DNA of 64,000 nt, from positions 1 to 64,000 of the forward strand of contig NZ_BJYX01000013.1 in assembly GCF_007991735.1 (NCBI RefSeq), written 5' to 3'. This document shows positions 42,862 to 46,124 of this stretch, piece by piece (positions within the stretch are counted from its first letter, which is position 1; each line of letters opens with the position of its first letter). A program made the translations under genes and the position numbers. The notes under the pieces are model-generated. The model saw only the letters and a list, made by a program, of their open reading frames with translations. It made no database searches and was not told the origin of the DNA. The DNA is from Terrabacter aerolatus (GTDB taxonomy: Bacteria > Actinomycetota > Actinomycetes > Actinomycetales > Dermatophilaceae).

Positions 42862-44091
42862 ATGACCGACGTCACCACCCCCGGCGCAGTGCCCGCTCCG
42901 GCCTCCGTCCCTGCGACCGGATCAGCCGAGACCGGGTCGTCCGGGACCGGGTCGTCCGGGACCGGGTCGTCCGGGACCGGGTCGGCCGGGACCGGCGGTG
43001 CCCGACACCGTGCGCGCTTCCATCCGCTCACCGTCTCGTCGGTCGAGCGCCTGACCGAGGACGCCGTCGCCGTGACCTTCACCGTGCCGGATGAGCTCGT
43101 CGACGAGTTCGCCTTCGAGCCGGGCCAGCACCTGACGCTCCGGGCCACCATCCGCGGCGAGGACGTGCGCCAGTCCTACTCGATCTGCCAGTCGCGCCGG
43201 GCCGACCCCGCGGGGCGCCGGCTCCGCGTTGCAGCCGCCCGCGTGCCGGAGGGGCGGATGTCGAACTGGCTCAACGACGGCGTGTCCCCGGGGGACGTCG
43301 TCGAGGTCATGACCCCCCAGGGGTCGTTCACGTGCGCGACCCGGCCCGACGGCATACGCCATCACGTCGCGATCGCCGCGGGATCGGGCATCACGCCCGT
43401 CCTCTCGCTCCTGACGACGGCGCTCGAGGAGGAGCCGGGCTCGCGCGCGACGCTGCTCTTCGGCAACCGCCGCACGAGCTCGATCATGTTCCTCGAGGAG
43501 CTCGAGGACCTCAAGAACCGCTTCCCGGGGCGTTTCCACCTCGTCAACGTGCTCTCGCGCGAGGCCCAGGACGTCGAGCTGTTCCACGGCCGGCTCGACT
43601 CCGAGCGGCTCGCGGCGATCTTCGGCTCGCTGCTGCCGGTCGGGTCGGTCGACGAGTGGTACCTCTGCGGGCCGTTCGCCATGGTGACCGGTGCCGAGGC
43701 GCTGCTCACGGGCCGCGGCGTCGATGCCCGGCACATCCACCACGAGATCTTCCACGTCGACGACGGGACCGAGCCCAGGCGCAAGGTCGTCGTCGACGCC
43801 GGCGCACCGCCCGAGGCCACCGTCACCGTCAACCTCGACGGGCGCACGACGGTCATCCCCATGCCGAGTCGCGAGGAGACGATCCTCGACGCGACCCTGC
43901 GCGCCCGGCCCGACGCGCCCTACTCGTGCACCGGGGGAGTCTGCGGCACCTGCCGGGCCAGGCTCGTGTCGGGTGAGGTGCGGATGGACCGCAACTACGC
44001 GCTCGAGCCCGAGGAGGTCGCGGCCGGCATCGTGCTCGCGTGCCAGAGCCACCCGGTGACCGACGCCGTCAGCCTCGACTACGACGCCTGA
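42862..44091 (+). CDS. paaE: Phenylacetyl-CoA epoxidase reductase PaaE
   Basis: PaaE passes electrons from NADPH to the di-iron subunit. The 409-residue protein has an FAD domain (RQSYSICQ), an NAD(P) domain (IAAGSGITPVLSLL, EWYLCGPFAMV), and a C-terminal plant-type 2Fe-2S domain (YSCTGGVCGTCRARL with a fourth Cys in LACQSHP). The N-terminal ~45 residues are a variable Thr/Gly/Ser linker built from a 15-bp repeat. It is the last gene of the paa operon here; paaK, paaG, paaZ and paaJ are not in the window. Confidence 0.96.
   Translation: MTDVTTPGAVPAPASVPATGSAETGSSGTGSSGTGSSGTGSAGTGGARHRARFHPLTVSSVERLTEDAVAVTFTVPDELVDEFAFEPGQHLTLRATIRGEDVRQSYSICQSRRADPAGRRLRVAAARVPEGRMSNWLNDGVSPGDVVEVMTPQGSFTCATRPDGIRHHVAIAAGSGITPVLSLLTTALEEEPGSRATLLFGNRRTSSIMFLEELEDLKNRFPGRFHLVNVLSREAQDVELFHGRLDSERLAAIFGSLLPVGSVDEWYLCGPFAMVTGAEALLTGRGVDARHIHHEIFHVDDGTEPRRKVVVDAGAPPEATVTVNLDGRTTVIPMPSREETILDATLRARPDAPYSCTGGVCGTCRARLVSGEVRMDRNYALEPEEVAAGIVLACQSHPVTDAVSLDYDA
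42916..42990 (+). repeat. 15-bp tandem repeat in paaE
   Basis: Three exact copies of ACCGGGTCGTCCGGG, one copy with a single change and one degenerate leading copy encode TGSSG units in frame. Copy number could vary between strains without breaking the gene. Confidence 0.9.
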
Positions 44092-44110
44092 CCCTCGGGA
44101 CCACCTCGCT

Positions 44111-44150
44111 GTGTGCATTAGGCGTCGTTCAGGCACCGCTGACTGCACAC
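44111..44150. repeat. Left GTGTGCA...TGCACAC palindrome
   Basis: The 7-bp arms GTGTGCA and TGCACAC enclose 26 nt. The element lies 20 nt after the paaE stop and 10 nt before the end of the leftward AbiEi/DUF559-like gene. It shares arms and spacing with the right element at 45206-45245. It may also act as a terminator. Confidence 0.6.
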
Positions 44151-44159
44151 GGCACCGGG

Positions 44160-45134
44160 TCAGGCCGCAGCTGACAGCGTCGAGGAGCACCGCCGTCTGC
44201 GGCACGGCTTCACCGACCCTCGCCAACCGCGCACGCGCAGGAGGTCGCCGACCTCCGCTGCCAGCGCGCAAGGAGTGACGGCCACGTCTGTCCAGAACAC
44301 CCGCACGGTGACCCGCCCCAGCCGCGCCGAGCCTCGATCGCGTATGCCGTCGCGGACCCGCGCGGCCCATCCGTCGTGCCCGAGCCTCCCGTCCACCTCG
44401 AGCACGACCTGCTCCGCCTCGTAGAGGTTGTCGCAGCGACGGCCCGAGCCGATGTGGTGCTGCCGGAGGGCGAGCGGCAGACCGTGGGCGCGCTCGACGT
44501 CGCGGATGTAGCGCACCTCGGCGGCGCTCTCGGCGCCGGCGCCCACGTCGGTGAGGCACTCGCGGAGCAGGGCGCGGTGCGTCTGGTCCGGTCGAGCCGC
44601 GAGGGCCTCCGCGAGACGGCCCTCGTCCGTGAGGCGCCGTTGGCACGCGCGAGCGGCGAGGGCCAGCACCCGATCGAGCGGTGAGCGCATGCCGAGGTCG
44701 AGAACGGTGTGCTCGACTGTGGTCCGGTGCGGCCACGCCCAGTCGTCGAGACGTTCGTCGAAGCGCCTCGACCGCGTGACCTGTATGCCGTCGCGGATGC
44801 TGGCCCGCCGACCGGCCGGGACGATGACGTGGACCGACTCAGGCTCGCGCCGTTCCAGCCCCCAGGCCAGGGCAGCGCTCGGTCCGGCGAGGGCAGCGGG
44901 GCGCCCGACGAAGAGCAAGGCCGCCACGGCCCGGACCTCCCAGTCGTCCCGGCCCGGGGTCGTGAGGTAGACCCCCGGATGCACGGCGACCCATCGACCG
45001 GACGCGACGGCCCACCGGATGGCCTCGTCGCCGATGCCTGCCGCCAGGGCCTGCCCGCGGCTGATGAGCCCCGCCTGACCGGACACCCTGGCTCGGAGAC
45101 GCGGTGACTCCTCCAGAACGCGGTCGGCCAGCAC
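44160..45134 (-). CDS. AbiEi-like winged-helix / DUF559 nuclease-like protein
   Basis: The 324-residue protein has an N-terminal segment (SGQAGLISRGQALAAGIGDE, AIRWAVASGRWVAVHPGVYL) like the AbiEi antitoxin winged-helix domain. A middle linker follows. The C-terminal DUF559/restriction-endonuclease-like domain contains CDNLYEAEQVVLEVDGRLGH, where E-V-D may be part of a PD-(D/E)xK-type site. No AbiEii-type nucleotidyltransferase toxin is adjacent, so it is an orphan. The start is uncertain: GTG 45134 or GTG 45086, neither with a clear ribosome-binding site. GTGCAC-containing palindromes lie in the promoter region and at both ends. The gene breaks the paa-thyA interval and looks accessory. Role unknown. 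Confidence 0.75.
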   Translation of the reverse strand: MLADRVLEESPRLRARVSGQAGLISRGQALAAGIGDEAIRWAVASGRWVAVHPGVYLTTPGRDDWEVRAVAALLFVGRPAALAGPSAALAWGLERREPESVHVIVPAGRRASIRDGIQVTRSRRFDERLDDWAWPHRTTVEHTVLDLGMRSPLDRVLALAARACQRRLTDEGRLAEALAARPDQTHRALLRECLTDVGAGAESAAEVRYIRDVERAHGLPLALRQHHIGSGRRCDNLYEAEQVVLEVDGRLGHDGWAARVRDGIRDRGSARLGRVTVRVFWTDVAVTPCALAAEVGDLLRVRGWRGSVKPCRRRRCSSTLSAAA

Positions 45135-45167
45135 GTGACCATGCTGCCGACCAGCTGCGCTGTACCG

Positions 45168-45190
45168 CTCCCACCGTGCACAGGTGGGAG
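45168..45190. promoter_or_regulatory. Inverted repeat upstream of the AbiEi/DUF559-like gene
   Basis: CTCCCACC and GGTGGGAG enclose GTGCACA. It lies 34 nt upstream of the leftward GTG start, a good place for an operator bound by the gene's own winged-helix domain. Confidence 0.45.
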
Positions 45191-45205
45191 TCTCGCGGGG
45201 CTGGT

Positions 45206-45245
45206 GTGTGCATGAATCGGGGTCCTGACCCCGAGCGGTGCACAC
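45206..45245. repeat. Right GTGTGCA...TGCACAC palindrome
   Basis: The outer arms GTGTGCA/TGCACAC and inner arms TCGGGGTC/GACCCCGA around CT form a 40-nt two-part hairpin, interrupted by a 4-nt mismatch on each side. It lies between the DUF559-like gene and thyA. Confidence 0.7.
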
Positions 45246-45295
45246 AGCGCGGTGCGTCGGCGGCGGCATGTGGTCGTGGGGTCGGGGGGCAGGGT

Positions 45296-45311
45296 TAGGC
45301 TGCGGAGCGTG
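45296..45311 (+). promoter_or_regulatory. Leaderless promoter box and start of thyA
   Basis: TAGGCT ends 7 nt before GTG 45309. Confidence 0.5.
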
Positions 45312-46124
45312 CGTCAGTACCTCGACCTCCTCGACCACGTCCTGACCCACGGTCAGGAGAAGTCCGACCGGACCGGCACCGGGACGCTCAGCGTGTTCGG
45401 CCACCAAATGCGCTTCGACCTCGCCGACGGCTTCCCGGCCCTGACGACGAAGAAGCTGCACCTGCGCTCGATCATCGGCGAGCTGCTGTGGTTCCTGCGC
45501 GGTGACACCAACGTGCGCTGGCTCCAGGAGCGCGGCATCAGCATCTGGGACGAGTGGGCCGACCCCGCCACGGGCGACCTCGGTCCCATCTACGGCTACC
45601 AGTGGCGGTCCTGGCCCACCCCCGACGGCCGGCGCGTCGACCAGATCGCCAAGGTCATCGAGCAGATCCGCACCAACCCCGACAGCCGCCGGCTCATCGT
45701 CTCGGCGTGGAACGTCGCCGACGTCGACGACATGGCGCTGCCGCCCTGCCACACGATGTTCCAGTTCTACGTCTCGCCCCCCGGAGCCGACGGCCGGCGG
45801 CGCCTGTCGTGCCAGCTCTACCAGCGCAGCGCCGACATCTTCCTCGGCGTGCCGTTCAACATCGCCAGCTACGCCCTGCTCACGCAGATGGTGGCGCAGC
45901 TGACCGACCTCGAGCCGGGGGAGTTCGTGCACACGCTCGGCGACGCCCACCTCTACCTCAACCACCTCGACCAGGCCCGTCTCCAGCTGACCCGCACGCC
46001 GCACCCGCTCCCGACGATGCGGATCAACCCCGACAAGAAGGCGATCGACGACTTCGACCTCGAGGACTTCGAGCTGGTCGACTACGTCGCCGACCCCGGC
46101 ATCAAGGCCCCCATCGCCGTCTGA
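45309..46124 (+). CDS. thyA: Thymidylate synthase
   Basis: ThyA methylates dUMP to dTMP with methylene-tetrahydrofolate, producing dihydrofolate. The 271-residue protein has [41 protein letters not shown], the catalytic Cys in [12 protein letters not shown] (near residue 147) and [19 protein letters not shown], ending in IKAPIAV. folA follows 27 nt later and recycles its dihydrofolate product. Confidence 0.98.

Follow-up and report, generated by a model that had tools for sequence, protein, structure and literature searches.

Two palindromes with identical arms bracket a gene of Terrabacter aerolatus that joins an AbiEi-type DNA-binding part to a Vsr/DUF559-type nuclease part, and the question raised by this locus is what connects the gene with its flanking sequences. 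The window, i.e. the whole stretch of DNA analysed, comprises 64,000 nucleotides of contig NZ_BJYX01000013.1. The gene (44160..45134, minus strand, 324 codons), which was assigned from sequence, profiles and predicted fold, runs leftward and is flanked by a PaaE-type reductase gene (paaE) and thyA; its start codon is uncertain, because the frame remains open upstream. As the original prediction had stated, the gene appears to be an orphan: there was no AbiEii toxin among the three neighbours scanned (PaaE-type reductase, ThyA and DHFR). The downstream palindrome (44111..44150) separates the 3' end of the gene from that of paaE, and the upstream palindrome (45206..45245) separates the start of the gene from that of thyA. 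Both are GTGTGCA-N26-TGCACAC, with the identical arms and 26-nt spacers that had been claimed for them.

The AbiEi-like winged helix was confirmed with Pfam AbiEi_4 (E 5.8e-9) and with the PADLOC AbiEi profile (E 2.5e-21). On the evidence of Pfam and an AlphaFold (AF2) model of the protein (pLDDT 94.4), the wing-helix domain occupies residues 1-62 (44949..45134, minus strand; AbiEi_4 covers residues 12-57), and the AbiEi C-terminal domain was placed at residues 63-198 (44541..44948, minus strand) by structural alignment with 6y8q. Residues 2-198 of the model aligned with the whole of the S. agalactiae AbiEi (6y8q; Z 13.0, rmsd 3.9), and M. tuberculosis Rv2827c (1zel) matched the model with Z 9.4. 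Residues 202-305 (44220..44531, minus strand) were assigned to a Vsr-like nuclease domain by structural matches and conserved residues. The structure comparison returned many middling nuclease folds and only rows with Z > 9 were used, namely the endonuclease-like protein 3hrl (Z 12.0), the catalytic domain of the homing endonuclease I-Bth0305I (3r3p; Z 11.9) and E. coli Vsr (1cw0, Z 10.1; 1vsr, Z 9.2). The proposed nuclease-like domain thus agrees with the predicted fold, but the DUF559 label holds only in part: the window protein did not reach Pfam DUF559, which was matched by 26 of 67 aligned homologues (E 0.1), while AbiEi_4 was found in 61 of the 67. This alignment consists of the window protein and 66 of the 80 named loci described below. 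Residues E206, D235, E246 and D266 are invariant in it, and H253 and D262 are at least 90% conserved. The step of 18 residues from D235 to H253 equals that from D51 to H69 in Vsr. Comparison of the window gene with three orthologues gave dN/dS values of about 0.13-0.26 (dN 0.054-0.060 and dS 0.40-0.42 for the two closest), and 0.21-0.36 was obtained for gene pairs of a second site (site D, see below), so the protein is under purifying selection. The gene product is probably a protein that binds and cuts DNA, as judged from its folds and conserved residues.

A chance origin of the palindrome pair was ruled out, since the two arms with a spacer of 20-32 nt occur twice in the window compared with 0.01 expected from shuffles. 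The bare word was present 10 times (6.84 expected), and both the ordinariness of the word and the unusual nature of the paired arrangement are therefore as the original prediction had them. The whole genome of 4.42 Mb contains five matches to the pattern, and none when the pattern is read backwards; these five copies are the window pair, a pair on contig 12 and one 39-bp variant on contig 5. In the genus, a half-site could be defined from 10 gene-flanking and 8 solo palindromes as an outer GTGTGCA and an inner CGGkGyC, 12 bp apart from start to start. The inner block is common to the solo copies although it formed no part of the search pattern. Between orthologues the palindrome arms are identical (14/14) in every comparison made, whereas the 26-nt interior agrees at 9-22 positions.

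Comparison with homologous loci indicated that the arrangement is not private to the window. The locus set consisted of 40 homologue loci from relatives and 80 named loci, 78 of which came from actinobacterial records; for the 110-locus set, 10 duplicates and one locus without a stop codon were removed and L180 was kept in the count. Palindromes, mostly of 40-56 bp, often occur before and after the homologue genes; their arms are matched in a given locus and change from one locus to the next (e.g. CGTGGAGGGTTGACG, CGTAGGGAGCGGATC, GTGGAGTTCTTCCGGCACC and GAGTCTTCGGAA in different loci). A score of at least 37 was reached by 54 of the 110 loci, compared with none of 109 control genes taken from the same DNA; shuffled sequences gave a mean of 0.1. 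The 110 loci are related to one another, so that the counts are not independent, and two of the 54 are weak (L180, a near copy of L182, and L084, spurious by eye). The link between palindromes and AbiEi/DUF559 genes suggested by the original prediction is therefore repeated in relatives. In the remaining 56 loci the pair was below the strict threshold, and the window locus itself scores 35. When the upstream flank of one locus was paired with the downstream flank of another, a mean of 14.2 loci reached 37, because the arms of different loci are partly alike; at a score of 42 the mean was 0.83, compared with 35 observed. A second pairing measure, for which L180 and two loci with a missing stop or a short flank were dropped, detected 25 of 78 loci, no control gene out of 78, and 1.0 when the pairing was rotated. 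Pairs were also found in 7 of 16 distant paralogues and in 8 of 16 further close ones, 32 extra loci that include two already in the 110 (L235 and L236).

In the pairing profile two blocks are separated by a dip, 8-10 bp out from the centre; the outer block is partly an effect of how the palindromes were chosen. Paralogues of one genome differ in their arms, as with GTGTGCA and GTGGAGTTC in G007 and G008. Arm similarity tracks protein similarity weakly (Spearman 0.14-0.16) and no domain stands out. The two palindromes of a locus were in direct orientation in 21 cases, inverted in 11 and undecided in 21 (n=53, L180 excluded). The homologue gene is also contained in L180 from a Verrucomicrobiia bin and L181 from a Gemmataceae bin; misbinning of the former is likely, because it is nearly identical to the Micropruina locus L182.

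A third inverted repeat, between the upstream palindrome and the gene, had been part of the original prediction. The repeat is present (CTCCCACC-GTGCACA-GGTGGGAG, 45168..45190), but it is not a conserved hairpin. It was not seen as a repeat in G007 and G008, and it surrounds CCGTGCACAGG (45174..45184, plus strand), the form that a conserved DnaA-box-like motif, T[TC][AG]TCCACAGG, takes in the window. The core TCCACA was found on either strand within 160 bp upstream of 90 of 110 homologue genes compared with 7 of 108 controls, and the longer form T[TC][AG]TCCACA upstream of 52 of 110 homologue genes and none of 108 controls. The motif is typically some 20 bp inward of the upstream palindrome, at a widely varying position, and was present both in loci with a detected pair (47/54) and in those without (43/56). 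It resembles the DnaA-box consensus.

Palindromes around a gene might simply be ordinary bidirectional terminators or chance hairpins, and common terminators had been considered in the original prediction. Some convergent gaps do hold ordinary hairpins, for example the gene-less site B described below. The window palindromes, however, have no terminator character, as not one terminator-like site (a hairpin followed by a T run) was found in 43900-45500; two divergent genes start on either side of the upstream palindrome, the 109 control genes are without any matched pair, and the downstream palindrome folds as a single strand little better than its shuffles (z -1.07, DNA parameters). We give terminators and chance hairpins next to no probability. 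Control at the RNA level, in which the hairpins would act in the transcript and the nuclease part would process its own mRNA, is consistent with the folding of the upstream palindrome and the inner repeat as single strands (z -3.52 and -2.55, DNA parameters). Selection for an RNA hairpin was nevertheless rejected, as mismatches on the coding strand were G.T in 129 cases and A.C in 111, without a clear excess or strand bias. There was also no Rfam match, and the closest solved folds are those of DNA nucleases, so that RNA-level control appears very improbable. The lack of a clear strand bias in the mismatches favours recognition of the palindromes as double-stranded DNA.

The paaE-thyA interval (site A) was compared among relatives. 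All five site-A copies in the genus (G000, G002, G005, G007 and G008) have both exact 40-bp palindromes, so the orthologous loci share them, and the gene with both palindromes lies in the paaE-thyA interval of G000, G005, G007 and G008. In the other loci read, thyA had no paaE that was found nearby, or the locus came from another genus. Neither gene nor palindrome is present in the intervals of G003 and G006. The G004 interval (L110) is without the gene and retains one decayed palindrome, GTGCGCA-N25-TGCACAC, with 13 of 14 arm bases; it lies 33 nt past the paaE stop, which is approximately the position of the downstream palindrome elsewhere, and was reached by none of 500 shuffles. Tandem GGCGTGTGCCG-type repeats are also contained in this gene-less interval. 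The G005 gene (L078, G005:C1:200246-201188) is probably broken, because it is split over two reading frames; both of its palindromes remain. In two Humibacillus loci of the nine at site A, the gene is reversed between the same neighbours and the palindromes score low. A tree rebuilt without the frame-shifted G005 copy, which had a long branch, did not reject a single clade of the Humibacillus and other site-A genes (p 0.25-0.30), and the reversal may represent an inversion in place or a separate arrival.

At site B, beside gpm, the gene is present in G002 and G008 and absent from 10 other genomes, none of which has such a palindrome in the gap; the upstream palindrome is not recognisable in G008. 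At site D, beside a metallo-beta-lactamase-type gene, six genomes carry the gene (G003, G005, G006, G007, G008 and G024) and five of them have a scored pair, G006 having only the downstream palindrome with 17 of 18 arm bases. Gene and palindromes are both missing from site D in G000 and G004, and three other genomes have different surroundings there and no such palindrome. The genes at site D, which come from two genera, group in a single supported clade and share one location. Gene and palindromes thus come and go jointly at the intergenic sites compared. As for the clean empty site that the original prediction had proposed to look for, gene-less paaE-thyA intervals exist in relatives, but neither a target duplication nor a base-exact empty site was seen at the sites compared. 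With the exception of G004, palindromes are missing at the gene-less sites, which counts against simple excision leaving a palindrome behind.

Copies away from the gene were unevenly distributed. The GTGTGCA pattern was found 86 times in 58 genomes, with 5 backward matches: 42 copies in G050, 9 in G023, 22 in the genus of the window and 13, near background, in the other 47 genomes. Within one family, 3 of 13 genomes (G050, G063 and G065) have 42, 11 and 11 palindrome copies and the rest 0-1. One pair in G050 brackets a homologue, leaving 40 extra copies; two copies in G063 bracket its gene exactly, leaving 9 extra; and none of the copies in G065 brackets a gene. Genomes in the genus of the window have 0-3 extra copies. 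For the GTGGAGTTC family of site D, no exact copy away from the gene was found in 36 genomes. Only 7 of 41 placed copies lie inside a crudely predicted reading frame, the rest being intergenic or at contig ends, and all eight 40-bp solo copies from the genus lie outside such frames. According to a crude gene caller, the 21 placed G050 copies are in tandem (6), convergent (5) and divergent (3) gaps, in frames (3) and at contig ends (4). The orthologous gap of G005 lacks the second contig-12 palindrome of G000, the genome of the window, as part of a length difference of 74 nt. The two contig-12 palindromes (G000:C12:64553-65910, L008), separated by 1.3 kb, enclose genes for a carbon-nitrogen hydrolase and a glyoxalase-like protein; since no homologue is among these genes, the bracketing is probably accidental. 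The idea that solo palindromes are the remains of decayed genes was rejected, as no protein remnant was found beside 42 loci, nor beside 10 loci in G063 and G065 apart from the real G063 gene.

Several further observations concern these solo repeats. Nine palindromes with GTGTGCA arms on G023:C1 (L253-L261), most of 41-43 bp and with a TTCCTGCC-like inner block, have no bracketed homologue, and G023 has perhaps lost its bracketed gene. Upstream of thyA in the same genome (L113), a solo palindrome has CGATGTATCTG arms similar to the CGATGTATT arms that bracket a distant homologue in G001 (L218). Two species share a conserved inverted repeat of 39 bp, GTGTGCAAC...GTTGCACAC, whose interior is different (L243, G000:C5:140717, and L248, G008:C15:32915); this repeat, of which G025 (L047) has a similar one, seems unrelated to the 40-bp family. 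An 8.5-kb inversion between G063 and G065 (L347-L350, G063:C60 and G065:C5) starts within about 25 bp of the G065 solo palindrome described below and reaches from there to an ordinary terminator-like hairpin. Phage or plasmid cargo was also considered and rejected: no relative was found in viral contigs, none in 72,556 plasmid records and one in 50,697 phage records. This one match (MT835975.1:8494-9432) is a 51% identical homologue in an unannotated 14-kb faecal phage record.

One G065 solo palindrome sits at the left junction where G063 has palindrome, gene and palindrome. This might indicate a homing-type gene, whose nuclease would cut the palindromes of gene-less relatives so that repair copies the gene in; the one-mismatch solo palindrome at gene-less site A of G004 and the closeness of the nuclease fold to I-Bth0305I would fit. 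Homing sites, however, are normally destroyed by insertion. Here both palindrome copies are intact beside the gene, and the other gene-less sites (2 at A, 2 at D and 10 at B) have no palindrome. Homing is in our opinion improbable. Vsr/DUF559 endonucleases and the EDxHD enzyme I-Bth0305I share the fold of residues 202-305 and the conserved acidic and histidine residues with the window protein, but this protein carries its own AbiEi reader and flanking palindromes, and its gene is neither beside a methyltransferase nor inside a split target.

The AbiE type IV toxin-antitoxin systems are relevant for the DNA-binding part. AbiEi is reported to bind two 23-bp inverted repeats, 3 bp apart in S. agalactiae and 13 bp apart for Rv2827c, and to repress its own operon (PMC7319586). 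The window protein has the whole AbiEi fold of these two proteins, wing-helix and C-domain, and its gene is preceded by what appear from the sequence to be paired inverted half-sites of about 20 bp. It differs in having no adjacent AbiEii, in the fusion to a nuclease domain and in the second site downstream of the gene. The likeness of the two half-sites to the AbiEi repeats, together with double-stranded recognition, suggests that the upstream palindrome is probably an operator. The autorepressor proposed in the original prediction is supported to this extent; binding and repression we infer from the comparison with the repeats described in PMC7319586.

The main rival to the reading preferred below is an autorepressor without mobility. 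The palindromes would be two operators, with the downstream one looping or shielding, the nuclease would serve defence or repair elsewhere, and solo copies would be other regulated sites or by-products. This is concordant with the resemblance of the half-sites to the repeats at AbiEi promoters (PMC7319586), with the conservation of the arms while the interiors drift, with the likely vertical descent of the site D genes, which are one clade at one place in two genera, and with the absence of matches from plasmid records. On the other hand, operators are seldom placed as the downstream palindrome is, beyond a stop codon in a convergent gap, the distribution of G050 copies over tandem, convergent and divergent gaps is unlike a regulon, and a solo palindrome is present in one orthologous gap and absent from the other. 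We consider repression alone rather unlikely. An operator does not suffice for the downstream palindrome, for arms private to each gene or for additional copies; these would require a nuclease acting at the sites, with recombination as a by-product, as in REP/RAYT.

In REP/RAYT systems (REPtrons, REPINs), according to the published accounts, an enzyme gene is likewise bracketed by its own specific palindromes, copies of which are scattered in some genomes, and several distinct systems per genome and signs of vertical descent are also described (PMC3116915, PMC3733652). The window protein, by contrast, is unrelated, with AbiEi and a Vsr-like nuclease instead of a Y1/HUH transposase. A Pfam scan of the window protein and the 67 aligned sequences, in which 15 families were listed, gave no Y1/HUH transposase: AbiEi and DUF559 families recurred, and the other matches were weak and confined to 1-4 members; the window system is consequently not a member of REP/RAYT. 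The GTAG tag at the hairpin foot is absent from both window palindromes when these are read directly, the half-sites are two-block and look like double-stranded binding sites, and only some of the arm families counted here are dispersed. Of the small mobile or REP/RAYT-like unit proposed in the original prediction, the joint presence and absence of gene and palindromes and the dispersal of the palindrome in some genomes were observed; membership of REP/RAYT was not, and movement we infer from these patterns.

The reading that we prefer, and to which we give an even chance, is that the locus belongs to a widespread actinobacterial class of palindrome-bracketed nuclease elements, with a REP/RAYT-like mechanism built on an unrelated protein. 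In each palindrome, the two half-sites would be recognised in double-stranded form by two AbiEi parts, and binding at the upstream palindrome would repress the gene. This would place the nuclease parts at the centre of the palindrome. A nick or break made there could set off recombination, through which the palindrome, or the unit as a whole, might be inverted, copied or lost, in a dependence like that of REP on RAYT. The DnaA-box-like motif may link expression or action to replication. Besides the matched pairs, the joint presence and absence and the dispersed copies, the reversed site-A gene in Humibacillus and the G065 solo palindrome beside the inversion speak for this reading; against it stand the 56 loci below the strict threshold, the GTGGAGTTC family with no exact copy elsewhere, the G023 and G065 copies that bracket no gene, the weak relation between arm and protein similarity and the mixed orientation of the palindromes. 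A broader form of this reading is more tentative, and we place it somewhat below an even chance: the Actinobacteria would harbour a large class, still without a name, of elements, either selfish or domesticated, which have re-invented REP/RAYT with an AbiEi-Vsr-like enzyme, two-half-site palindromes of their own and a DnaA-box-like, replication-linked switch, each paralogue having a private palindrome that multiplies alone in some lineages.

Each part alone is already known, and the combination appears to be new. The system falls outside both REP/RAYT and AbiE, because the enzyme that defines the former and the partner that defines the latter are missing here. No description of such palindrome-bracketed AbiEi/DUF559 elements, and no report joining AbiEi with DUF559 or RAYT/REP sequences with Actinobacteria, was found in the literature searched, which was that outside subscription journals and preprints. 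The recurrence across actinobacteria, with palindromes that differ by gene, suggests a family of self-marked nuclease elements that has not been described before. AbiEi/DUF559 relatives are present in several copies per genome in the group, with 7 matches in the genome of the window, and a defence-gene library labels 64 of the 67 aligned homologues AbiEi. If these genes belong to private palindrome pairs, a large family without an assigned function becomes testable, with a likely DNA target that can be read from the flanks of each gene. If true, this would represent an independent origin of palindrome-plus-enzyme elements, and the family would supply many sequence-specific binding proteins whose sites can be predicted.
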